Source: Bdellovibrio sp. (lineage in GTDB: Bacteria; Myxococcota; SpSt-1050). From it: a stretch of DNA of 18,217 nucleotides. The notes under the pieces are model-generated. The model searched no databases. It saw only the letters and a list, made by a program, of their open reading frames with translations, and was not told the origin of the DNA. The translations under genes were made by a program, and so were the position numbers. Position 1 is the stretch's first letter; the number at the start of each line of letters is the position of its first letter. This document shows positions 2,660 to 18,094 of the stretch, piece by piece. The stretch lies in assembly GCA_020725805.1 (NCBI GenBank), contig DYEF01000083.1, positions 1 to 18,217 on the forward strand, given 5' to 3'.

Positions 2660-4960
2660 ATGAAAAGATTATCTAGTATTTTTGTATTACCTGTTATTTT
2701 CTTCTCATTCATTCTGACCGGTGCACAGGGGGATAATTCACTCGGTATAAATACACACATTCTTCATAACGATGTATATGATGCCGTTGCTGCGGCGGGT
2801 ATCCCGTGGGTAAGAATTGATGTCAACTGGTTCGATGTCGAGCCTCAGCAGGGTAAATTCAACTGGAGCGAAATCGACAGGGTTGTGAGCAAGGCATTAT
2901 CACTCAATCTTAAGGTCTTTGCCACATTTGCCTATACTCCCCAGTGGGCGTCATCCGGCAACAATGACGGAAAATCGTATGGAAATGATGTGCCGAAACC
3001 GGGGCTTTATGAGAAGGCTCTTGCGGAGGCCGTCAGGAGATACAGGGGGAAGATATCTCATTGGGGACTCTGGAACGAGGTGAATCTGGGCGGCTTCTGG
3101 GAAGGGACTGCCGACCAGTATGTGGACCTGATAGTAGTGCCGGGTTATACTGCTATCAAGAATAATTGTCCGGAGTGTTATTCACTCGGTCCCGAACTTG
3201 CAAATGTCGGGGATGTGCTGAATGATTTTTACAATACAATCTTCTCGAGGGCCAAAGATAAACTGGATATAATTACTCACCATATTTATCAGACATTTCC
3301 TGAGCTTGACCCTTGGGCCGGATATACCTCGGATTCTTTTTTCAATGCGCTCGAGAAGAAAAGGACTTTTTCGACCCGTATGGCGCTTTATGAGGCGCTT
3401 GCAAAATATGGTATTACAAACAAGGAAGTATGGATAACAGAGACCGGTTACAGATGCAAGCCGCCTGCGGATTCTTCCGAGATGAATAACCAGAGACTGT
3501 ACTACGAACTCGTGCTTAAAGCCCAGATTGAACGCGTGTGGTGGACAAATACATTTTTCTATGAAATCTACGACTGCGGGACGGATATACCGGACTGCGA
3601 TATTGATGGTTATGGGATTTTGAGAAGGACAGCACCTGCCGATAATACTTATCAGGACAATTTTCTGTTCAAGCCGGCATATTATTATCTGAAGGACTTT
3701 ATGGACAAACACCCTGAATTTAAGGGAGGAACCCAGATTGATGCGGGGTATGATATACCTTATTCGGATATAAATAGTAAGGATGCAATCACTACCGATG
3801 CAGGGACTTCTGACAGAAAGGTTGTGAAGGCAGTAAGGACATACAGTCCGCCTGTGATTGACGGAGACCTGAAAGACTTCTTTTTAAATCAACCTGCAGT
3901 ACTTGCAACGAAGGATTATGTGAGGCTCACATCTGACAGCAGCGGAGATAATGATATCAGCGGCAGGTTTTATTTTATGTGGGATGAGAACAATCTCTAT
4001 GTTGCTGCGGTAATTAAAGATGCGAATTTTAATAGTGAGACTGCCGAAAATATCTGGAAGGGAGACTCGGTTCAGATGGCATTCGACTCTGATTTCGACA
4101 GGACAGAGATGACCTATGATTCTGACGGTGACTATGAGATAGGGTTTGCGCTCGTGAATAATTCGGTGGTTTCATACAGGTGGGTGGCTCCGATAACCGC
4201 CCCGTCTCTTAAGATGGTCGCAGATTATAAAAAGTCCGGTGATACTCTGACATACGAAGTGTCGATACCGTTTAGTAATCTGTCGCCATTGAAACCGGTT
4301 ATCGGTAAGGTGGCAGGGTTAAGCTTCCTGATAAATGATAACGACGGAAACGGCAGAGAGGGATTTGTCCAGTTTACGGAAGGTATAGGACAGGGGAAGA
4401 ATCCTTCGGCATTTGCTGAATTGATTCTTACAGGGGGTATTTGTGAGACGGAAAAGGAGTGCGGCAACAAGTCTGATTGTGCAGGTGTATCGCCGAATTG
4501 CAATTGTACCGGTGACTGGACCTGCAACGGAAGAGGTATGTGCGAGTGGGTCTGCGCTTCCTCTGATGCAGGTATGACGGATACTTTCGGGGACATTATA
4601 TCAGCAGATATCTCTTATTCCGACAACTCTTCCCCCGATGATATTCAGGATGTAAGCTCTGCCGATACCCCTGTTGAAAAGGATACCTATTCCGAACTTT
4701 CTGAAGATACTGCTACTGCCGATACAGTAATATACAAAGAGTGCTCAAACGGGGTCTGTATAGAATCAGGATTAGGGTATTGTCCGGACTCAGATTTTCC
4801 TGTAAAAACGGATACTCTCTGTATGACGACCAGTAATAAAGAGGGCTTCTGCTGTATCGCAGGCGGTTCAGATGCTATGATTATCCCGAAAGATGCCGGA
4901 GCTGATGTGCAGAGTCCGGAAGAATCCTCCTCAGGTTGCGGCTGTAATCTTATCAACTGA
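2660..4960 (+). CDS. Secreted clan GH-A-like glycoside hydrolase with CBM9-like module and Cys-rich C-terminus
   Basis: Predicted exported polysaccharide-active enzyme. An N-terminal signal peptide (about residues 1-24, MKRLSSIFVLPVIFFSFILTG) is followed by a (beta/alpha)8-type domain to about residue 355. This domain shows the clan GH-A landmarks: WNE (W138-N139-E140, presumed acid/base) and WITETGY (E261, presumed nucleophile). The style is closest to GH39/GH5-like proteins, but I cannot fix the family or substrate. Residues about 392-592 look like a CBM9/DOMON-type carbohydrate-binding domain (PPVIDGDLKDF, MWDENNLYVAA, IWKGDSVQMAFD). A module with about nine cysteines begins at C595, followed by an Asp/Ser/Thr-rich linker (about 640-695), another Cys-containing segment and the C-terminal tail SSSGCGCNLIN. 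The GCGC tail recalls MYXO-CTERM-type sorting signals, but the hydrophobic helix and Arg cluster are absent. The start is supported by AGGTGAGGTG just upstream. The YkvA gene follows 21 bases later. Confidence 0.87.
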   Translation: MKRLSSIFVLPVIFFSFILTGAQGDNSLGINTHILHNDVYDAVAAAGIPWVRIDVNWFDVEPQQGKFNWSEIDRVVSKALSLNLKVFATFAYTPQWASSGNNDGKSYGNDVPKPGLYEKALAEAVRRYRGKISHWGLWNEVNLGGFWEGTADQYVDLIVVPGYTAIKNNCPECYSLGPELANVGDVLNDFYNTIFSRAKDKLDIITHHIYQTFPELDPWAGYTSDSFFNALEKKRTFSTRMALYEALAKYGITNKEVWITETGYRCKPPADSSEMNNQRLYYELVLKAQIERVWWTNTFFYEIYDCGTDIPDCDIDGYGILRRTAPADNTYQDNFLFKPAYYYLKDFMDKHPEFKGGTQIDAGYDIPYSDINSKDAITTDAGTSDRKVVKAVRTYSPPVIDGDLKDFFLNQPAVLATKDYVRLTSDSSGDNDISGRFYFMWDENNLYVAAVIKDANFNSETAENIWKGDSVQMAFDSDFDRTEMTYDSDGDYEIGFALVNNSVVSYRWVAPITAPSLKMVADYKKSGDTLTYEVSIPFSNLSPLKPVIGKVAGLSFLINDNDGNGREGFVQFTEGIGQGKNPSAFAELILTGGICETEKECGNKSDCAGVSPNCNCTGDWTCNGRGMCEWVCASSDAGMTDTFGDIISADISYSDNSSPDDIQDVSSADTPVEKDTYSELSEDTATADTVIYKECSNGVCIESGLGYCPDSDFPVKTDTLCMTTSNKEGFCCIAGGSDAMIIPKDAGADVQSPEESSSGCGCNLIN

Positions 4961-6966: not shown

Positions 6967-7716
6967 ATGAACAAAAAAGGTTTTACACTTCTTGAGATGA
7001 TGATAGTGGTCGCTATGTTTGCAATACTTGCAGCAATCTCCGTTTCGGCGCTTACCCCGACTGTCAATTCTATTGATGCCAAATCCTATACGCAGGAGAT
7101 AGCGAGGCTTCTGAAACTTTGCCGCACAAGGGCGATTGCCAATACAGTGGACCATCTTTTTGTAATGAACCTCGATGATGCAAATACCTACAATACGCAG
7201 GACGGCGGAATTGTTCCCAATGGTATCTCTCTCTACAGCGGTGATGGGTTTTCGCTCTCACCGACAAGGGCGAATACTGCTGTAAGATGGGGGAATGAAA
7301 GTGCCCCTGATCCGGCCGGGATGAAAGGACCGTTCAATAATCTGGGTCCGAGGCTTGCCTTTATACAGGGACTTTCCGGGAGGTTCAGGACAGAGGCGGT
7401 GGGAGAGATTTACGTAGATATTTACTCCCTCGAACCCTGCCCCAACAATATCTGTCCAGCCGTTCCTTCCCAGAAGAATACGGTGGAGGCGATCAGATGC
7501 AGGCCTGACGGGACTATGTCTGTTTACAACGGGACGGCAAGTGAATTCAGAGGCAGGTACAGAATCTACGTCGGAACCAATAAAGGAATGACAGGCAATT
7601 ATGAGATTACGAACACAGGTGCTCTCAACAACGTGGAAGACCAGTATATGGTTGACATAATAACATTTACAGGCAAGGTGAGGCTATGTATAGGATGGTC
7701 AGCAAATTGCCAGTAG
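6967..7716 (+). CDS. Prepilin, FimT/GspH-like minor pilin
   Basis: Minor pilin or pseudopilin of a type IV pilus. The 249-residue product has a short basic leader MNKKG, a prepilin peptidase site between G5 and F6, and a mature N-terminus FTLLEMMIVVAMFAILAA with the conserved Glu at mature position 5, which is needed for subunit registration. The hydrophobic helix runs to about residue 30 and is followed by a soluble domain with six cysteines (KLCRT, EPCPNNIC, IRCRPD, RLCIGWSANC). The FimT/GspH assignment rests on its first place before PilV-, PilW-, PilX- and PilY1-like genes and on its compact GspH-like C-terminal domain. GGAG lies six bases before the ATG. It overlaps the next gene by 31 bases. 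Processing would be by a PilD-type peptidase encoded elsewhere. Confidence 0.88.
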   Translation: MNKKGFTLLEMMIVVAMFAILAAISVSALTPTVNSIDAKSYTQEIARLLKLCRTRAIANTVDHLFVMNLDDANTYNTQDGGIVPNGISLYSGDGFSLSPTRANTAVRWGNESAPDPAGMKGPFNNLGPRLAFIQGLSGRFRTEAVGEIYVDIYSLEPCPNNICPAVPSQKNTVEAIRCRPDGTMSVYNGTASEFRGRYRIYVGTNKGMTGNYEITNTGALNNVEDQYMVDIITFTGKVRLCIGWSANCQ

Positions 7717-8273
7717 TTAACAATCAGAGCGGCTTTTCTCTGATTGAACTGCTTGTAGCGGGTGCTATACTGACGGTCGTACTTACTATAGGAATCTTCC
7801 CGATGTTTACTACCGCTACCTTTCTGAATACGGTCTCCAGCCAGAAGACCATTGCCACCAATCTGGCTATGGATACACTGGAAAATTTCTATCAGATCTA
7901 TCAGGGTGTGAGCTGGAATGCAATACCTGTCCAGGACGGAAATGTAGGCGGTTCTGTAAATAATCCCTGTCCGGATAATCCGGCTCCCTGTCCTCCTGCT
8001 GACCCGGGTGATAGTGGTACGAATCCGCTTCACCAGCACACAGTAACGATAAATGGTGTGGAGTATGTCCGTGTCTGGAGAGTCGACCGCAATGTCCCTG
8101 TTCAGGACGTTCACAGAGTCTCTGTATGTGTCTACTGGAGGCCATGGCAGAATGTCAAGACAGCTGATGAGGTTGGTGAGGGTTCTGCGAGTGTAGCTGC
8201 CTGCCAGAAGGTAGGGGCAAGTAAGTTTGTCTATTGCAATCTCGGAGACGGACTGAGAGGGAGGTGTCAGTAA
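7686..8273 (+). CDS. Prepilin, PilV-like minor pilin
   Basis: Second prepilin of the operon, 195 residues. A 16-residue leader ends NNQSG, with predicted cleavage G16/F17 and a mature start FSLIELLVAGAILTVV containing Glu at position 5. The hydrophobic segment extends to about residue 45. The soluble part has six cysteines and a Pro-rich stretch (NPCPDNPAPCPPADP), with a Tyr/Val-rich beta region after it (VEYVRVWRVD). The order fimT-pilV-pilW-pilX-pilY1 is the standard type IVa minor-pilin layout and supports the PilV call. The start at 7686 is preceded by AAGGTGAGG. A second ATG at 7695 is possible and would shorten the leader by three residues. The gene starts inside the preceding one and ends in TAATG, sharing one base with the next start, so translational coupling is likely. 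Confidence 0.87.
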   Translation: MYRMVSKLPVVNNQSGFSLIELLVAGAILTVVLTIGIFPMFTTATFLNTVSSQKTIATNLAMDTLENFYQIYQGVSWNAIPVQDGNVGGSVNNPCPDNPAPCPPADPGDSGTNPLHQHTVTINGVEYVRVWRVDRNVPVQDVHRVSVCVYWRPWQNVKTADEVGEGSASVAACQKVGASKFVYCNLGDGLRGRCQ

Positions 8274-9583
8274 TGCTAAGAGCAGGTTCCAGAGAAAGCG
8301 GTTTTACGCTGATTGAAGTCCTGGTTTCTACAGGTATTCTTGCTATCTTTCTCGTCTCTGTGGCCGGTGCATATCTTGCACAGGAGAGGACTATGAAGAT
8401 GGAGGAGGAGATAGCGGATATGCAGCAGAACGGGCGTATAGCGGCTGATTACATAGAGGCGGCGTTGAGAAACGCCGGCTCCGGCATTACAGGCGGGCAG
8501 AGGGCTACGAGAACGAGCGCAATCGAGATGGGAATCAGAGTGCCGGATGTGATCCTCGGTCTTCCCAGCAGCAACCAGTATTATATGACAAAAGGTGTCT
8601 TCGGTGTAAATGATGTCGCTGTAAACAATCTGATTACGCAACCCGCTTTTATCCCGAGCAGTGAACACCCTGCCAATCCTACAGTAAGCGATGTTCTTAC
8701 AGTTATTTACGGAGGATTGCCCTTTGTCAGGCTGGCGGCAAAGGCAGGAAAGGTAATTGCCAATCAGTACTTTCAGTTTACATATTGTGCAAGTGAAGGA
8801 AATATCTTCCAGAACGGGGACCTTATTATTGTCTCCAATATGAGGAATTCGGCACTGTACAGGATAACAGTTGCTCCGCAACTCTCGGGGTCGACCTCGC
8901 CTTTCTGCAAAGGACAGTTTTATATATTGCAATGTCAGCTTAGTGAACCTAACAGAATCAATAACGTCAATACTAAATACAGACACAGGGATGACCCATC
9001 TTCAATATTTCAGTATCACGAAGGTCAGGGTATTGTATTCAAAGGTTATATTACACAGTTCAGGATGATAAATCCTGCGGTAGATACTGCTTACTGGAAT
9101 GCTGCTGACCCGAGACCGGTTCTTATGGTGGACAATTTCCTTCCCCAGACTGCCAATCCGCTCCAGTTTGAACCTGCTGTTCCTCTTGTGGAAAACATAG
9201 GTACATTACAGCTGAGTTTTGGATTCTGGGTACCTACCGGAGCGAATAATGTGCCCGACAATACTGTCAAGCCCAATCCGAACCATTCAAACAAAATTCT
9301 TGTAGATGATTTCAACTTTACAACGGTTGATTCAGCTTCGAATATAAGGCTCGTTCAGTACAGCATACTCGCAAAATCCGAAAAGTCTGATTATCAGAAG
9401 GAAGGACCTGCCGGAGGTACCGGGATTTCGGGTATTTCCGAATCAACAGTACTGGCAAGCGGGTCAAAAATCGGAAGTTATACACTTAGTGACAAGAGAC
9501 CGGGTTACAGATGGAGGCTTTATCAGGCCATAAAAGGTCTTAAGAATACCTATGGTCTGAAGGATGATTACAACGATAAATAA
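8273..9583 (+). CDS. Prepilin, PilW-like minor pilin
   Basis: Third prepilin, 436 residues. The leader MLRAGSRESG is cleaved after G10, and the mature N-terminus FTLIEVLVSTGILAIFLVS has Glu at position 5. A heptad-like helix follows (EEEIADMQQNGRIAADYIEAALRNAG), which is characteristic of PilW proteins. The large beta-rich C-terminal region contains three cysteines and ends with a charged tail. PilW forms the minor-pilin priming and tip complex with PilV, PilX, FimT and PilY1. The frame continues upstream to an ATG at 8234, but the ATG at 8273 is preferred. It has GGGAGGTG seven bases upstream, overlaps the previous stop as TAATG, and gives a leader of normal length. The length is in the upper range for PilW but not abnormal. 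Confidence 0.88.
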   Translation: MLRAGSRESGFTLIEVLVSTGILAIFLVSVAGAYLAQERTMKMEEEIADMQQNGRIAADYIEAALRNAGSGITGGQRATRTSAIEMGIRVPDVILGLPSSNQYYMTKGVFGVNDVAVNNLITQPAFIPSSEHPANPTVSDVLTVIYGGLPFVRLAAKAGKVIANQYFQFTYCASEGNIFQNGDLIIVSNMRNSALYRITVAPQLSGSTSPFCKGQFYILQCQLSEPNRINNVNTKYRHRDDPSSIFQYHEGQGIVFKGYITQFRMINPAVDTAYWNAADPRPVLMVDNFLPQTANPLQFEPAVPLVENIGTLQLSFGFWVPTGANNVPDNTVKPNPNHSNKILVDDFNFTTVDSASNIRLVQYSILAKSEKSDYQKEGPAGGTGISGISESTVLASGSKIGSYTLSDKRPGYRWRLYQAIKGLKNTYGLKDDYNDK

Positions 9584-9593
9584 GGAGTAAGCC

Positions 9594-10208
9594 ATGCTTA
9601 CAGGAAATAAAAAAGGTATTGCGATGTTTGTGGTGCTCCTGATGGTCTTTTCCCTTACGGCACTTGCTTATATGTCCCTTTACACTTCTACTATAGAGAA
9701 GGATATTGAGCGTGCATACAGGGTAAAGAGACTTGCCGCAATGGCCTCAGAGGCGGGTGTTCACGCTGTCATAAGACAACTGATTAATACCCAGATGCCT
9801 GTCACGATTCCCATTCCCTATAATGTTGTTAATGGTACTGCTCCCGGCCAGAATCAGATGCATCCCGTTATCGGACTTTGTCAGGTAGTCGCAATGAATT
9901 GTCTTGATCCGGCAGTCAACCCCAACAATGCCACGTTAAATGAGATGTGCTGTTTCAGAACAGGTCCGATGGCAAATTACGCTACAGGGATGCCTTTTTA
10001 TTATAGCAATCCGATGGACCCGACCCAGAATGCCTTTACAAGAGTTATGCAGGACAGGGATATACAGATCCCGGGGAGCGATAATAAATGGGTTCATAAA
10101 GTATTTTTCTTCTTTGTAACAGGTGCTGGTCCCAGCAGGTCTTTCTCAGAATCTATAGTCTATTACAAATACGGCCCTGTTCAGACAGGGACCAGTAATT
10201 ATATGTAG
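9594..10208 (+). CDS. PilX-like minor pilin
   Basis: The 204-residue product starts MLTGNKKGIAMFVVLLMVFSL, a short basic leader before a hydrophobic helix, then SLYTSTIEKDIERAYRVKRLAAMASEAG. The alternating charged/Ala helix with SEAG is typical of the PilX_N family. The residue at position 5 after the presumed cleavage (G8/I9) is Val, not Glu. The same departure is known for the T2SS tip pseudopilin GspK and suggests a terminal position in the fibre. Four cysteines lie in the middle of the soluble part (GLC, NC, CC). AAGGAG is six bases before the ATG. It lies 10 bases after pilW and 10 bases before the PilY1-like gene, so it belongs to one transcript. Confidence 0.85.
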   Translation: MLTGNKKGIAMFVVLLMVFSLTALAYMSLYTSTIEKDIERAYRVKRLAAMASEAGVHAVIRQLINTQMPVTIPIPYNVVNGTAPGQNQMHPVIGLCQVVAMNCLDPAVNPNNATLNEMCCFRTGPMANYATGMPFYYSNPMDPTQNAFTRVMQDRDIQIPGSDNKWVHKVFFFFVTGAGPSRSFSESIVYYKYGPVQTGTSNYM

Positions 10209-10218
10209 GAGGTGCCCG

Positions 10219-13200
10219 ATGAGACTTAAGCTTGTTTTTATTATGTGTGTATTCGGGCTCCTGATTCTGTCTGATACCCTTTATGCCGGCCCCGGAATGG
10301 AAGATATATATACCCTTCAGGCACCTGCAAAACCGAATGTAATGGTCTTTCTGCCTGACAGCAAGACTATGATGGACTGGGCATATCCAAGAAATCTTTA
10401 CGTTGATTGCACAGGTGCTTCAGGTTGTCCGGCCGGCTGTTTAAGCAATTGTCCGAGGAGATACTTCGGACTTGCAACGGGAAATGTAAATTTTACCAGT
10501 GCAAACTGTAACAGTACCTTTTTTACAACCACATATAAATTATTCCCTGAGACAGCTGCATCGCAACTGACATTTACCAATACAGGTACAGGCTGCACAG
10601 TAGGAGTTACAGCCGCATTTTATCCCGGTTATGTATCAAGGACACTTGCATACAAAAATTACACAGCAGATGAGTTTAATTACTATTTCTCTACATACTA
10701 CGCTGCGCTCCTTGCAATCCTAGCCCGTAATTCCGCAAATGCCCAGATCGGTTACCTGAGGCCTGATATGTTTGGAAATGATTACAGGTATGGTCTCGCC
10801 ACTTTCAATCACAGACTACCTATTACAAATGACGGGCACGGAGGCAGCATAAGGCAATATATTACCAGTAGTGACCTTGACCCCAATTTCACAGTAACAG
10901 CAATTGAGAATATGTTTCTGACCAGTGCAAATTTCAACAGACTGCCGAAAGGGTGGTTTCCGATTGCAGAGACAATGGCAGAAATAGGTATGTATTTCGT
11001 GGGTGCCGCTCCTATTTTCAGTCCGGATGTTGCTACATATACCACTCCATGGGGCAACGGTATAAAATCCAATCTGAATTATGACCTGACCAATCAGTCA
11101 TATCTGGGGAATAAGGCATTTATCCTTGCATTTATCACCCAGCATCCTTCACAGGACCAGCATTCGGTACTGAGTACAATAGGTGACTATGATGGCGACG
11201 GTCAGGAACCGGCTGTGATTTTCCCGAATAACGGGACGCACTATTTTGACGATCTGGCACTCTTTGCGGCCCGGTTTGATACTATCCCCGACGGTGACAA
11301 CGTTTACAGCCAGAACCCGAATCCGTATCCTCAAACCTACTGGGGAGGAAGATGTCCGTATCTTCCCACAGCGCACCAGACCAACTGCAGAAGGCAGAAT
11401 GTCTCGACCGATGTGATTATTATCGGTGATAAGGATGCCCAGGTCTATGAAATGGGCGGCCAGTACGGAATGGGTAAGACATACAAGACACTATCTCCCG
11501 TAAACGCAGATGATACATTCGGATATGACTGCCAGAGTTCTACAAACCCCGAGTGCTTAAGAGGAGTTGCAAGGGCAGTTCACCACTATTTCAACAGTCT
11601 GTGGAGCAGAAATGTGGATATAAACGAAACATACTGGCTTGCCTCGCCTGTCCTTGATGTAGACCCGTTTGAACCGTGGGATTGTAATGCCAACCGTTAC
11701 ATAGCACCGTTTTTTACACCGACTACGACCACTTTATTTGAAGGACATGTAGTTGCATACAGCTTCGGTGACCAGAATGTATGTCCTCTTCCCGTTGTCC
11801 CCGTAAATGTGGTTTTTGCAGAAGGAAGACACCTCAATTCAAAGAGCGGTATCTGGGATGCCGGAGTCAGCATTGGTTCGTGGGTAAACGGAAATCCGAT
11901 GACATCGAGAAATATTTATACAAGCAAGGGAGCAAACCTTTACAAACTCGACAATGCAGCGATTACAGCAACAGATCTGGGACTTCTGTATAACGGCGCA
12001 GATGAAAGAGGTCAGGTCCTTGAGACAATTTTTAAGGGTATAAAGACTTACTGGGACGGAGGTACAAGGTTGTTGTCGTGGGTGATGGGAGATGTCAGGA
12101 ATGACCCGGTTTTGGTAGGAAGACCCAATCTGTTCTATTCGGATATCAGTGTTGCAAACCTGAGTACAGGCCAGCAGGTAACAGACCCGGCTTATGCCAA
12201 CTTCGTAGCAGGCAATTTCTGCCGTCCTAAAATAATGTATTTTGGCGCAAATGACGGACAGCTGCACGCAGTCTATGTCGCCCAGACCTCCGGTTGTCAG
12301 GTAAACAATATAAACGGAGATATTATTGCTCCGGGAACTTACGTAACCGATGCAAATTCCGGAGGTGAGATGTGGTCTTTTGTCCCGAACGCGGTATTGT
12401 CCCAGCTGAGAGAGATTGTCCCTTCATGGGCACAGGGGAAGAAGTACTTTTCGTGGGATACCGGTGTGCCGTATAACAGCCTTGTGGCAAACTGGGACGG
12501 AGGTAAATATATTAATTCGGATGTCCTTTACAGAAGATATTTTGTCGATGCGACTCCTCAGGTTTCGGATGTATGGATATACAGTAATACCAACGATACA
12601 ACAAAAGACTGTCCGTGGCCGTATACCTACGCATCCTGTGAATGGAAGACCTATCTGGTCTCGGGTCTCGGGCTCGGCGGAAAATCTGTCTTTGCTCTGG
12701 ATGTTACTACGATTGATCTGGCCAATATGAAGCCTGTTCTGTTTGTAGGTGAATTCAATTATGCCAACCCGGATGGTGCAGGTACCAGCAAATACCTTGG
12801 TTTCACTACCTCGACTCCCGCGATCGGCAAGGTTAAGATTTGTACAGATGTGGGTAACTGTGACAGCGGCGCATCACAGAGAGAGAGGTGGGTTGCGATC
12901 TTTGGTGCAGGCTACGCGCCGGAGAGCGATCCGACTGCTGAATCCGGTGGTATGCCGACTTATGACACCAGCAATAATCAGTTTGCAGGAAGAGGACTGA
13001 TTGTTCTCGACCTCAAGACTATGCAGAAACTGTGGGAATACGGATTTGATTCCTCTGCAACTGATGACAGGAGGTTTATGAGATATGCCCTTGCCTCTCA
13101 GGTGAAGGCCTACGACAAGAACGGTGACGGATATATCGAAACTGTCTATACAGGTGACCTCGGAGGGCAGGTCTGGAGATTCGACCTTTCGCAGTTCGGG

Positions 13201-14118
13201 GCGATTTCGGGAGGTTATGTCAGAACCTGCGGCGGGGCTGTTTCGAATAATTGCTGGAAAGGCGACAGACTCTTTGCAGCGCCGGCAGTTGCTGCCAAAA
13301 ACGGTAAAAAGGCGTGTTCCAAAAAGCAGTGTGTAAACTGCTCCGGTTGCGGAGGCTCTCTTGCCTGCGGACAGAGACTTGGAAAACTCAGATGTGCCAC
13401 AAACTGCAGCTGTTGTTCCTCTGCCTATGGTGCCGATAAGGAATGGCAGTCTTTCTGGGCTCCGCCATCTGTTGCCATCAACAGCTTCGAACAGGTGTAT
13501 CTCTTTATTGGTGCGGGTGATAAGTCTAACGTTCTTTATAAGGACAATGAAAAAATTATGAAATTCTACGGAATTAGGGATGTTATTGAGGATGACCCGA
13601 CGGCCACTACATTGACAGAGGGGGACCTCAACAGGGTAAATAATCCTGCAACAGCCGCCTATGACCCGCAGGGCTGGTATTTCGAGATGAATGCGGGTGA
13701 AAAAGTTATAACTGCGCCGATTGCATTTAGTTTCAATGTGTTTATTACGACATTCTTGCCCCGCGACGAAATTGTAGGGACAGACTGGGACAAGGCTTTT
13801 ATTGAAAGGGCATATGTCGGTGATACCAAACTCAGAGTTGTTGATTTCTCTACCGGAGGACTCAATCAGATTACCACCGATAATGCGAGGGCAAATCTGC
13901 TTTGGAGCGGTTTGCAGGTCGGAAGAGGGTTGCCGTCCAAGCCGCAGGTTGTAACCAGAAAGCCGGGCACCGGAGCAGGACAGGATCAGGGCTCAGTAGA
14001 GCTGATGATTCAGACTTCAACAGGTCAGTATATCAGAGGTACAGGAGCAGATTTCGGTCTGCCCACAGGAACCGCAGGGATGATGGTCGGAAGAATAATC
14101 TTCTGGCTTGAGAGATAA
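10219..14118 (+). CDS. PilY1-like type IV pilus tip adhesin/assembly protein
   Basis: Large secreted protein (1299 residues) of the PilC/PilY1 family, expected at the pilus tip or outer membrane for pilus priming, adhesion and surface sensing. A signal peptide (residues 1-24, ending TLYAG) is followed by a vWA-like region (about 38-480). The C-terminal PilC beta-propeller (about 670-1250) shows family signatures: GANDGQLHAVY, WSFVPNAV, YFVDATPQVSD, LVSGLGLGGKSVFALDV and YTGDLGGQVWRFDLS. An EF-hand-like calcium loop, DKNGDGYIE, lies at 966-974; DYDGDGQEP is a second similar loop in the N-terminal half. Two oddities: the usual MIDAS motif DxSxS reads D47-S-K-T-M, and the TPxAE motif reads FPIAE (F247). 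Also, nine cysteines cluster at 1033-1066 between propeller segments. AGGAGG lies six bases before the ATG. It is the last large gene of the pilin operon. Confidence 0.92.
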   Translation: MRLKLVFIMCVFGLLILSDTLYAGPGMEDIYTLQAPAKPNVMVFLPDSKTMMDWAYPRNLYVDCTGASGCPAGCLSNCPRRYFGLATGNVNFTSANCNSTFFTTTYKLFPETAASQLTFTNTGTGCTVGVTAAFYPGYVSRTLAYKNYTADEFNYYFSTYYAALLAILARNSANAQIGYLRPDMFGNDYRYGLATFNHRLPITNDGHGGSIRQYITSSDLDPNFTVTAIENMFLTSANFNRLPKGWFPIAETMAEIGMYFVGAAPIFSPDVATYTTPWGNGIKSNLNYDLTNQSYLGNKAFILAFITQHPSQDQHSVLSTIGDYDGDGQEPAVIFPNNGTHYFDDLALFAARFDTIPDGDNVYSQNPNPYPQTYWGGRCPYLPTAHQTNCRRQNVSTDVIIIGDKDAQVYEMGGQYGMGKTYKTLSPVNADDTFGYDCQSSTNPECLRGVARAVHHYFNSLWSRNVDINETYWLASPVLDVDPFEPWDCNANRYIAPFFTPTTTTLFEGHVVAYSFGDQNVCPLPVVPVNVVFAEGRHLNSKSGIWDAGVSIGSWVNGNPMTSRNIYTSKGANLYKLDNAAITATDLGLLYNGADERGQVLETIFKGIKTYWDGGTRLLSWVMGDVRNDPVLVGRPNLFYSDISVANLSTGQQVTDPAYANFVAGNFCRPKIMYFGANDGQLHAVYVAQTSGCQVNNINGDIIAPGTYVTDANSGGEMWSFVPNAVLSQLREIVPSWAQGKKYFSWDTGVPYNSLVANWDGGKYINSDVLYRRYFVDATPQVSDVWIYSNTNDTTKDCPWPYTYASCEWKTYLVSGLGLGGKSVFALDVTTIDLANMKPVLFVGEFNYANPDGAGTSKYLGFTTSTPAIGKVKICTDVGNCDSGASQRERWVAIFGAGYAPESDPTAESGGMPTYDTSNNQFAGRGLIVLDLKTMQKLWEYGFDSSATDDRRFMRYALASQVKAYDKNGDGYIETVYTGDLGGQVWRFDLSQFGAISGGYVRTCGGAVSNNCWKGDRLFAAPAVAAKNGKKACSKKQCVNCSGCGGSLACGQRLGKLRCATNCSCCSSAYGADKEWQSFWAPPSVAINSFEQVYLFIGAGDKSNVLYKDNEKIMKFYGIRDVIEDDPTATTLTEGDLNRVNNPATAAYDPQGWYFEMNAGEKVITAPIAFSFNVFITTFLPRDEIVGTDWDKAFIERAYVGDTKLRVVDFSTGGLNQITTDNARANLLWSGLQVGRGLPSKPQVVTRKPGTGAGQDQGSVELMIQTSTGQYIRGTGADFGLPTGTAGMMVGRIIFWLER

Positions 14119-14138
14119 ACATAATAAGGAGGTTAGTT

Positions 14139-14189
14139 ATGAACTGGAGACCAAATCCAAGACCCAAGGGCATAAAACCCAAGAAGTAG
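14139..14189 (+). CDS. 16-residue Pro/Lys/Arg-rich microprotein ORF
   Basis: The frame encodes MNWRPNPRPKGIKPKK, then TAG. AAGGAGG precedes the ATG with a six-base spacer, as good a ribosome binding site as any in the operon. It begins 20 bases after the PilY1 stop, and the operon terminator starts 11 bases after its own stop, so it lies at the 3' end of the pilus transcript. The product would be strongly cationic (seven Lys/Arg, no acid) with four prolines and no hydrophobic segment. I recognise no family. Possible roles are a leader peptide, a small partner of the pilus machinery, a proline-rich peptide acting on ribosomes or membranes, or a fortuitous translated ORF. Translation signals are seen directly; function is unknown. 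Confidence 0.5.
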   Translation: MNWRPNPRPKGIKPKK

Positions 14190-14200
14190 TCAAAAGAAAA

Positions 14201-14243
14201 GGGGTAATATAGCTTTTATATTTCCCCTCTTTCTTCTTTTTTC
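14201..14243 (+). terminator. Intrinsic terminator of the minor-pilin/PilY1 operon
   Basis: GGGG (14201-14204) and AATATA (14206-14211) pair with TATATT (14217-14222) and CCCC (14224-14227), with one T-T mismatch and a five-base loop. The T-rich run TCTTTCTTCTTTTTTC follows. This is a textbook hairpin plus U-tract on the plus strand. Confidence 0.85.
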
Positions 14244-14251
14244 AGCAAAAA

Positions 14252-15304
14252 GTGAAAAAACTGAGGTTTTATTGTGTTAATTTTATTTTATTAATTATCA
14301 CGATAGTTATTTCGTTATTTGTTATCGAGATTCTTTTCAGGGCATTTATCAAAGAAGTAACGATTGGTTCTCCTGTTTATTTCCCTTCGAAGGAGTCTGA
14401 TTACTATGGTTTGCCTTTCGAGCTGCTTCCAAACGGTGAAAAATGTAAAAACTGTGATTTTTATTTTAATAAACTCGGTCTTCGAAACTATGAAGTGGAT
14501 GTGCCAAAACCCGGAAATATCTTCAGAATAGTCGTGCTCGGTGATTCCCACGTTTTTGGTGGTGTGCTATATTCGGATACAATCCCTCAGCAGCTTCAGA
14601 GACTTCTAAATGATGATTCCGATTTGAGGTCATTTCTTAAAAAAGATTTTGAGGTTATCAATGCAGGAATTCTGACATTTAATCTTAGAAGCATATATTA
14701 CCTTTATCATCATAAAATCAGACAGCTGAATCCTGATCTGGTATTGTATATATTTCATACCAATGACCTTGAAGAGAGTATTTATAAACCTGTAATTAAC
14801 AATGACGGGCAAACTATATTTATCGGATTTCCGTCTCAGAAATATGCAGGAGATTCTATCGGTATATTTTCAGAAAAGGTCGATAAATTTCTTCTGAGGA
14901 ATTCTGTATTCTACAGATATATATGTTTCGTATCTGAATCCCTGAGGAATAAAGATAATGGTTCTTCGTTCGAGGTGATTCATTCCCATCAGCTTGGATT
15001 TCTGGAAAGGCTGTATAGTGAAACTAAAGAAGATAAATCTTTATTTGCTGTATCTGCCCTGTTGAAACTGAATGCAATGAGTTCCTGCAATCCGGATGAT
15101 TTTGAAAAAGAGGTTATGAAACTTTTTACAAACAGAGTATTCAGATTGAATATACCTATGATTGATATCTCAGATACATTATGCGGAATCCCTGTTGAGA
15201 AGCTTGACAGGGGAGATCACGCACATTTTTCCGGTTATGCAAATTCTATTATTTCGAAGCGACTCTATAGCGGGATAAAAAATCTTCTTATTTCAAATGA
15301 CTGA
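14252..15304 (+). CDS. Membrane-anchored SGNH/GDSL-type hydrolase
   Basis: Predicted esterase or acyl-transfer enzyme of the SGNH superfamily, anchored by an N-terminal helix (about residues 7-30) with the catalytic domain outside the cytoplasm. Signature blocks are GDSH (G97-D98-S99-H100, nucleophile S99), an ND pair at N171-D172 in HTNDLEES (block III-like), and D322-H-A-H325 (block V, catalytic Asp and His). Such proteins often act on acyl groups of polysaccharides or envelope polymers; the substrate here is unknown. The GTG at 14252 is the only start available before an upstream in-frame stop at 14210. It has no visible Shine-Dalgarno sequence and lies eight bases after the terminator T-run. 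The region is visibly more AT-rich than the pilus operon. Its TGA abuts the stop codon of the convergent gene on the other strand with no gap. Confidence 0.83.
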   Translation: MKKLRFYCVNFILLIITIVISLFVIEILFRAFIKEVTIGSPVYFPSKESDYYGLPFELLPNGEKCKNCDFYFNKLGLRNYEVDVPKPGNIFRIVVLGDSHVFGGVLYSDTIPQQLQRLLNDDSDLRSFLKKDFEVINAGILTFNLRSIYYLYHHKIRQLNPDLVLYIFHTNDLEESIYKPVINNDGQTIFIGFPSQKYAGDSIGIFSEKVDKFLLRNSVFYRYICFVSESLRNKDNGSSFEVIHSHQLGFLERLYSETKEDKSLFAVSALLKLNAMSSCNPDDFEKEVMKLFTNRVFRLNIPMIDISDTLCGIPVEKLDRGDHAHFSGYANSIISKRLYSGIKNLLISND

Positions 15305-16432
15305 TTACTGAATAATCGCTTTTACTATTCCGTTTCCGTATTTTGAACTTTTATATCCCGATTTTCTCCAGATAAAATCGACGAGCAGGGGAATACCCGA
15401 ATTCAGGAATGAGTGATTGCAGAAGACAACCGGTATTTTTGAACTCACAGCCAGCCTGCATAGCCTTTTTATTTCGGGATTATATATCCTGTTTATGTCC
15501 AGCATATCAAGGGCAAATCTGTCTTCCTTTCTGACATCCATATTGAGATATGAAAAGAGGATGCGGGAATCGATAAAGAGTGCATCGCAGTACCTGTGGA
15601 GATTCTTAAACAGAAACTTCTCCCCGAGTCTGTAGAATGCATCAAAGAATATCGAATAGAAATCTTTTCCTCCCTGCGAAACTAGTCCTCTGCCTTCTAC
15701 TACGAATTTTGTTCTGCAGGCAGTGCGGTATCTCAGAAACTGAATCAGAAACTCCGAAATCCTGCCCCAGAAGAGAATCTCCTTTTCTCTTCGGGTAAAG
15801 ATATTGACCATTTTCATTATGTTCGGATTGGATATTACGGTTTCTTCAAGGAACTGCCTGAGATGAGTCTTCCCCTTTCCGGAAATCTTTAGTGCCAGCA
15901 GGTCGAGCGGTCCGTCGATGTCAAAGAGACTGAATTCGTCCCTTTTTATTTCGATGCCGTAAAGGCCGTATCTTTCAATTAAAAATTTCGGGACTGAATT
16001 GTCTGCCCTGATATTGTCTATTGCGGGTCTTTTGATGTCTGTCCTGATGAAAAAATAATCTGCGGAGTAGAGATTGTTTGCGATAATCGAATTTTTTCTG
16101 AGATAACCCAGATATTTTTCCGTCTTTTTCGGAGTCAGAAATACAGATGAACCACTCCCCGTATAGAACAATCTGCAACCGGGATATCTTTTCAGTATCA
16201 GGTTTAATCTGCGACCAAAATCTGGTATCTGTGAGGTGTTCTGAATCTCTATGTCACCTGTATTTTGAATAACTTCAGGATTATTGGTCTGAATAATTAT
16301 CCTGTCGAACAGATTACACCCTTTTACCGTTTTGATAATATCCTTCAGGTTTTCATTCTTTGCCCGCTGAACAATGCCGCTGTAGTGCCTTTCATTTACT
16401 TCTTCAAGGTGATTTATCAGTGCAATATTCAT
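15305..16432 (-). CDS. Uncharacterised protein, possibly with a MobA/CofC-like nucleotidyltransferase N-terminal domain
   Basis: The 375-residue product has no signal peptide or clear membrane helix. The first ~135 residues alternate beta and alpha elements (MNIALINHLEEV, FDRIIIQTN, PDFGRRLNLILKRYPGCRLFYTGSGSSVFLTP) in a way that recalls MobA/CofC-type nucleotidyltransferases, but the usual acidic metal motif is not evident. The second half (FVVEGRGLVSQGGKDFYS, RYCDALFIDSRILFSYL) is a separate conserved-looking segment I cannot name. The frame is open further upstream to 16516, but the ATG at 16432 is chosen because it overlaps the TGA of the radical SAM gene as TGATG, which indicates translational coupling. 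No other ribosome binding site is visible. The shared unit suggests a joint function with the radical SAM enzyme. The nucleotidyltransferase call is tentative inference. Confidence 0.72.
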   Translation of the reverse strand: MNIALINHLEEVNERHYSGIVQRAKNENLKDIIKTVKGCNLFDRIIIQTNNPEVIQNTGDIEIQNTSQIPDFGRRLNLILKRYPGCRLFYTGSGSSVFLTPKKTEKYLGYLRKNSIIANNLYSADYFFIRTDIKRPAIDNIRADNSVPKFLIERYGLYGIEIKRDEFSLFDIDGPLDLLALKISGKGKTHLRQFLEETVISNPNIMKMVNIFTRREKEILFWGRISEFLIQFLRYRTACRTKFVVEGRGLVSQGGKDFYSIFFDAFYRLGEKFLFKNLHRYCDALFIDSRILFSYLNMDVRKEDRFALDMLDINRIYNPEIKRLCRLAVSSKIPVVFCNHSFLNSGIPLLVDFIWRKSGYKSSKYGNGIVKAIIQ

Positions 16433-17994
16433 CACTTTACAGGTTTCAGAATTCCGAAACCGAATCTCCTTATATGGTTTATGTGAATTCCCCGGCATTG
16501 GGAAAAGTAGATACATTTATTGCATCTGAGAGATTTATGGTAATTTCTGTTCAGAAGAAAATCCTCTGCAATATTCGAAAGGACAAAGCCGTTTTCATCG
16601 ATAAAATCCGACCTGAAGAAATAGAAGTGTTCTCTGTAGTGCTCCCTTGAAATACATCTCGGAAGATTGGATATACAGAGATTCTGCTGTTTTATTACTC
16701 TTTTAACCGACTGAATATCGGATATAATTTCGAATTCTGATTTCAGATCGGGTGAATTCGGGAATATCAGTTCGAGACCTTTGCGGTTTTCTGCCTTTCT
16801 GATATTCTCCTGAGTAAGGACAAGTTTTGTCTTGATTCCCCTGAGATTCAGTATATCTGCATTTTCCGATATTACAGTTCTGCACTTGGATTTCTTTATT
16901 GCCTCTTCTGTTCCGTTTAGGTCTTTGATTTTCAGAATGATATTCTTGCAGCTGTCCTCTGTTTCTTCACTGACAAATCCGAGAAGTTCCGGAGATATCA
17001 GGATTGAGGCATTATAGGAGATATGGTCGAATATTTTGTCTCTGACTCTTTTGCTTAATGGCCCTGTTATTTCGATTCGGTCAATCCTCTTTTTCAGGTA
17101 ACGGGTTCTTATCTCTATTAGAAACTCGCAGAACTCCCTTACAAAACAGTCTTCACACCTTTTTATGCTGCGGCATTCCAGAACCCCCAGATTCAGGTAT
17201 TTGCCGAATATTTCAGACCTGCCGTATATCTCGTCCATTATCTTGTGGGGGTCCTGAATATACTCTTCATTCCCTTCAAGGATATTCGGGGGAACCCTGT
17301 TGGTCCAGACTACGATATTATTTTCCTTTGCATATCCGATAGCTTCCTTTAATGCCCTTTTTTCCTCCTTGGGATTTACCTTCAGTATTTCGTAATTTTC
17401 GAGTGAGCGCCCGAAGGGTGTGAGATGCAGCAGGTCAAATTCCGCAATCTTATATCTTGTAAAGAAGAACGCAATAGTATCCCTGAGATGTTTCAGATTC
17501 AGTCTGTTCAGGACAATGTCTATTGAAATCACGATATTGTGTCTTTTCAGATTTTCGATTCCTTTTATTGTCTGCCTGAATGAACCTTTTATATCGGTAA
17601 GTCTGTCAGCAGTCCTTTCGATATGCGAATGAAAGGATATTGTTACTTCATTCAGACCCGACAGGACCGCTCTGCTGGTAAAATCGGGATAGGCAAACAT
17701 CCTGCCGTTTGAGATTATCTGAATCCATCTGAATCCTGACTTTTTTGCAAACTTAATAAGTTCTATTATGTCGGGGTGAATGGTCGGTTCTCCGCCTGAG
17801 AGGATGAGTCTTGTATATCCGGAATCAAAAGCCGATTTTATCTCCTTTTTGAGTGTCTCAGTGCCGATAATTTCTCCGTTCTGCACCTCGGAATCGTGAC
17901 AGAATATACAGTGATTATTGCATCTTTTGGTGGTTCTCAGCCAGAATCTCTTTTCTGTGGCTATCTCTTCCTTGTTGAATATATCGAGCGGCAT
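16432..17994 (-). CDS. Radical SAM protein with additional C-terminal cysteine clusters
   Basis: Predicted iron-sulfur enzyme that cleaves S-adenosylmethionine to start radical chemistry. The core motif CNNHCIFC (CxxxCxxC, residues 25, 29 and 32) is followed by LILSGGEPTIHPDI, the GGE motif that binds SAM, in a partial TIM barrel to about residue 210. Two further cysteine groups occur: CRSIKRCEDCFVREFC (about 260-275) and, at the extreme C-terminus, CNKCIYFSQCRG. Both resemble SPASM/twitch auxiliary cluster segments. The region between them (about 300-480) matches nothing I know. The 520-residue length is long for the family. The frame extends to a TTG at 18033, which would add 13 residues. 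The ATG at 17994 is preferred, though neither start has a strong Shine-Dalgarno sequence. It is the first gene of a two-gene unit. The substrate is unknown; a peptide or small-molecule modification is equally possible. Confidence 0.85.
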   Translation of the reverse strand: MPLDIFNKEEIATEKRFWLRTTKRCNNHCIFCHDSEVQNGEIIGTETLKKEIKSAFDSGYTRLILSGGEPTIHPDIIELIKFAKKSGFRWIQIISNGRMFAYPDFTSRAVLSGLNEVTISFHSHIERTADRLTDIKGSFRQTIKGIENLKRHNIVISIDIVLNRLNLKHLRDTIAFFFTRYKIAEFDLLHLTPFGRSLENYEILKVNPKEEKRALKEAIGYAKENNIVVWTNRVPPNILEGNEEYIQDPHKIMDEIYGRSEIFGKYLNLGVLECRSIKRCEDCFVREFCEFLIEIRTRYLKKRIDRIEITGPLSKRVRDKIFDHISYNASILISPELLGFVSEETEDSCKNIILKIKDLNGTEEAIKKSKCRTVISENADILNLRGIKTKLVLTQENIRKAENRKGLELIFPNSPDLKSEFEIISDIQSVKRVIKQQNLCISNLPRCISREHYREHFYFFRSDFIDENGFVLSNIAEDFLLNRNYHKSLRCNKCIYFSQCRGIHINHIRRFGFGILKPVK

Positions 17995-18094
17995 ACTTCT
18001 GTCAGATATACACCAAAATAATAATTTCTCCAAAAAAATCTTCTTTCGTTTTTTTTCGGGATTGAAGAAAACCTCAATATTTTCTGAATATACC

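Follow-up and report, generated by a model that had tools for sequence, protein, structure and literature searches.

A new, apparently genus-restricted microprotein of 16 residues encoded after pilY1 and, in a second copy, before a radical SAM gene

The window analyzed here, a stretch of 18,217 nucleotides of Bdellovibrio sp. DNA, carries a new microprotein gene of 16 codons (14139..14189, + strand) that closes a type IV pilus operon and encodes MNWRPNPRPKGIKPKK followed by a stop. The identification is based on the sequence itself, on an orthologue in a sister species and on a paralogue in the same genome. Comparison of the three copies indicates that the microprotein is very probably translated and under purifying selection, and we hold with high confidence that it is a real gene. 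Our preferred interpretation, with a rough probability of 0.62, is that it is a stand-alone, independently translated peptide that acts in trans on an anionic target; trans action as such, whatever the target, appears slightly more probable.

The gene, whose DNA letters are ATGAACTGGAGACCAAATCCAAGACCCAAGGGCATAAAACCCAAGAAGTAG, starts with the ATG at 14139 and ends with the TAG at 14189, as given both by reading the sequence and by the scan. Its start lies 20 bases 3' of the PilY1 stop (14118), and it is preceded by a Shine-Dalgarno sequence AAGGAGG (14126..14132, +) with a gap of six nucleotides to the ATG, again supported by sequence and scan. Since pilY1 and the small gene are in different frames, read-through from PilY1 is ruled out as its source. 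Four bases past its stop begins a terminator-like hairpin with a U-rich run behind it (14194..14235, +; -15.8 kcal/mol, z = -4.0), and none of 200 shuffled sequences folded as stably; a simple terminator scan of the window did not list this hairpin. The initial annotation had described the spacing of the ribosome-binding site, the position between the PilY1 stop and the operon terminator, and a length too small for ordinary gene finders, and our analysis agrees on all of these.

Directly upstream lies pilY1, coding for the 1,299-residue type IV pilus tip adhesin (10219..14118, +; Pfam PF05567, T4P_PilY1, E = 9e-13). It shares its operon with the minor pilin genes (6967..10208, +), three of which match Pfam N_methyl. 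These comprise three minor pilin genes with a prepilin methylation motif (6967-7716, 7686-8273 and 8234-9583, all +) and a gene in the PilX position (9594-10208, +).

The only genome of the same genus that we compared is the metagenome-assembled genome of Deltaproteobacteria bacterium isolate SKW273. A peptide search returned one further strong match, an orthologue in this genome (contig JAOAFA010000010.1, C123 of genome G001, 8296-8343), which encodes MNWRPNPRPKGIRPKK and differs from the window microprotein in one residue (15/16 identical). It lies 3' of pilY1 with a separate AAGGAGG in front of it, and the terminator hairpin behind it occupies the same place as that of the window and has an unrelated sequence. 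That the sister species encodes the same peptide in the same place, behind a ribosome-binding site that belongs to it alone, supports the proposal that a genuine microprotein closes the pilus operon. The PilY1 proteins are 82% identical and the minor pilin genes are in the same order, with 77-86% identity. At the DNA level, 47 of the 51 bases of the small gene are identical in the two species, more than in any 51-nucleotide stretch of the last 600 nucleotides of pilY1 (best 45/51, mean 38.3 over 550 windows). Past the terminator convincing alignment ends, and the next gene in SKW273 is convergent, so that no same-strand operon gene follows. In the window, a 350-residue protein is encoded directly past the terminator (14252-15304, +). 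It contains 'VVLGDSHVFG', which by eye resembles SGNH hydrolases, has no Pfam or NCBIfam match and has no same-strand gene in its place in SKW273.

Searching the window's own genome at the DNA level with a 501-base query around the gene returned one match besides itself, on contig C41 (50317-50368). The alignment is confined to the reading frame (query 240-291) and does not extend beyond it. This paralogue (50321-50368 of C41) encodes MNWRPNPRPKGIRPKK, exactly the amino acid sequence of the SKW273 microprotein. Its ATG is preceded by CGGAGG, and a TTGACA-17-TATATA pair can be seen by eye upstream, although the strict scan did not list it. C41 very probably belongs to the same organism as the window, because codon usage and GC content agree.

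We relied on silent and replacement differences to measure selection on the peptide. The window and C41 copies differ by six silent and one replacement changes (P = 8e-5 to 3e-4), the window and SKW273 copies by three and one (P = 0.016 to 0.03), and the C41 and SKW273 copies by eight and none (0 of 100,000 simulations, P < 1e-5); the comparisons share sequences and hence are not independent, with three sequences from two genomes. Here P is the chance of as few replacements under random substitution at the same number of sites with a transition bias of 1 or 4, and the TAG/TAA difference in the stop codon was entered as silent. The sole replacement among the three copies is Lys13/Arg13, all but one of the nine variable sites fall on third codon positions, and all three copies retain the ribosome-binding site (AAGGAGG or CGGAGG) and the ATG. 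Two checks suggested by the initial annotation, conservation in relatives and the balance of synonymous and non-synonymous changes, therefore both came out in favor of the gene: peptide and ribosome-binding site are kept after pilY1 in SKW273, and the changes are almost only silent. Comparison alone thus gives clear evidence of amino acid selection on a gene as short as 16 residues.

A conserved DNA or RNA element that merely resembles a reading frame, or chance, would account for the fact that the first 26 bases (14139-14164) are nearly invariant in the three copies. This stretch includes the codon of Pro7, which is the rare CCA (8% of the Pro codons in the window). However, the limits of the alignment coincide with those of the reading frame, variation is concentrated at third codon positions, one pair shows a depletion of replacements with P < 1e-5, and there is no Rfam match. 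The bias towards silent changes strongly favors a protein-coding gene over both a nucleic acid element and chance, and we regard these as highly improbable. Because the 5' half is invariant also at most silent sites, an additional constraint at the nucleotide level may be superimposed on that on the amino acids.

The constant position after pilY1 in both species, within an operon that is otherwise conserved, could reflect a dedicated partner of PilY1 or of the pilus tip that acts during pilus assembly. Such a role is quite unlikely, and the alternative of a conserved PilY1 partner raised by the initial annotation has lost ground, because the C41 copy lies far from any pilus gene, within a B12/radical SAM operon, and because the C-terminal region of PilY1 has a single match genome-wide. 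In addition, the microprotein has no signal peptide or export signal and so no obvious route to the exported PilY1, and G002, a genome of the same order, has a pilY1 without the peptide after it. Since the C41 copy immediately precedes a radical SAM gene, the microprotein is not specific to the PilY1 operon.

On C41, the stop codon of the small gene overlaps by one base (TAGTG) the GTG start of a gene for a B12-binding radical SAM protein of 468 residues. There is no in-frame start codon 5' of this GTG, which is the only possible start; ribosomes therefore most likely translate the C41 peptide, and translation of the enzyme is likely coupled to it. Some B12 radical SAM enzymes are peptide C-methylases, and the arrangement would suit a precursor of a ribosomally synthesized and post-translationally modified peptide (RiPP) that is modified by the adjacent enzyme. 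We consider this very unlikely. Against models of RiPP maturation the enzyme stays far below the cut-offs, and it ranks best with the BchE/HpnJ-like group (BchE and HpnJ are its top NCBIfam models, both also far below cut-offs), its neighbors UbiA and polyprenyl synthetase are lipid-like, and 16 residues leave little room for a leader and a core. Moreover, a RiPP precursor does not fit because SKW273 has the peptide and no close counterpart of the enzyme (best 31%). A homologue of the enzyme with 50% identity occurs in G002 without the peptide.

The overlap with the enzyme start on C41 and the position of the pilus-locus copy shortly before a terminator hairpin also recall leader and arrest peptides, such as TnaC-like peptides and uORFs, which are likewise tiny reading frames that lie by a terminator or overlap a start codon. 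In a cis-acting mechanism of this kind, ribosome pausing on the Pro/Lys-rich chain would control the neighboring gene, either through attenuation ahead of the terminator or through coupling to the radical SAM gene. We find this unlikely. What lies downstream differs from copy to copy, with a same-strand gene past the terminator in the window, a convergent gene in SKW273 and the overlapping enzyme start on C41, and this weakens the explanation, including the regulatory peptide considered in the initial annotation. Unlike what is seen in such leaders, the amino acid sequence is constant across all three layouts, and in SKW273 the transcript holds no downstream gene to be regulated. Furthermore, the peptide comes after and not before pilY1 in both species, and no conserved RNA structure covers the gene (z = -0.8 and +1.7).

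Since cis-regulation, a partner of PilY1 only and a modified-peptide precursor do not fit all loci, a trans-acting stand-alone peptide remains. The peptide is encoded by the final cistron of the minor pilin/pilY1 operon and again directly before the C41 radical SAM gene, where ribosomes would gain access to the enzyme gene through termination-reinitiation at the stop codon of the peptide. In both cases it would act on its own as a factor in the cytoplasm, made together with the products of these operons. An anionic partner is suggested because the strongly cationic microprotein contains six Lys or Arg, four Pro, one Trp and no acidic residue. Going by this composition, the basic residues may bind the anionic target while W-x-P-x-P-R-P provides aromatic and proline contacts, and RNA or the ribosome, an acidic protein or a membrane surface would be the likeliest targets. 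The presence of two copies in unrelated neighborhoods of one genome suggests a portable small factor.

In several respects the gene resembles the stand-alone microproteins that conservation or ribosome profiling has revealed in bacteria, which are likewise short, lie in operons with their own Shine-Dalgarno sequence, are missed by gene callers and evolve under purifying selection. The gene described here also shows that a tiny cistron closing an operon can be real and that such cistrons are easily missed. With 16 residues the present one is near the lower limit, it lacks the transmembrane segment of CydX/KdpF-type partners and, in contrast to the known cases, it occurs in two unrelated gene neighborhoods of the same genome.

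Oncocin (type I) and apidaecin (type II) are proline-rich antimicrobial peptides that are also cationic, rich in Pro and Arg, and of similar length, whereas our microprotein is bacterial and has no secretion signal. They presumably share an aromatic-x-P-x-P-R-P core, so that W-x-P-x-P-R-P would resemble these ribosome-binding peptides of insects. By inspection, W3-R-P-N-P-R-P9 fits such a core of the oncocin type, a resemblance over seven residues and not homology. In type II peptides, a penultimate Arg and a hydrophobic last residue are critical (PMC11347161, PMC13233979). The microprotein ends in P-K-K, with Lys-Lys in their place, and does not belong to type II. As far as membership is concerned, the likeness to antimicrobial peptides is superficial, as had been noted at the outset. 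It is a long shot that the peptide enters the exit tunnel of the cell's own ribosomes and tunes translation when particular operons are expressed, an idea modelled on the proline-rich peptides of insects that enter this tunnel, where type I members such as oncocin arrest initiation.

The microprotein appears confined to the genus. We found no further copies among 195 genomes of the phylum, and a search of three genomes that allowed as many as three mismatches found no degenerate extra copies. In G002, no such reading frame follows pilY1 or precedes the radical SAM homologue. A scan for the motif MxWRPNPRP in 84,980 species and in viral contigs, a set that may lack the closest relatives of the window's own genome, returned the full peptide only in SKW273; in the other 35 genome and four viral stretches the likeness ends with the motif, or with a near-motif that the degenerate code admits, and the residues that follow are unlike the peptide. 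Among the papers searched, none contains the string WRPNPRP or the name SKW273, and the text of a survey of PilY1 proteins in myxobacteria from 2026 mentions no small protein, no small reading frame and nothing downstream of pilY1.

Several features of the surroundings of the two loci are worth recording. On the 103-kb contig C41, the B12 radical SAM gene that overlaps the microprotein gene belongs to a set of about ten related ones, as counted from matches to one of them, and between 40000 and 58000 many such genes lie beside UbiA and polyprenyl synthetase genes. No named pathway fits this cluster, which is partly similar to one on contig C105 of G002. In the window, a radical SAM protein of 533 residues with a Fer4_12 match (16432-18033, - strand) adjoins a protein of 403 residues with no Pfam match (15305-16516), and a further gene encodes a protein of 766 residues with a CBM9 domain and a weakly GH10-like N-terminal region (2660-4960, +).
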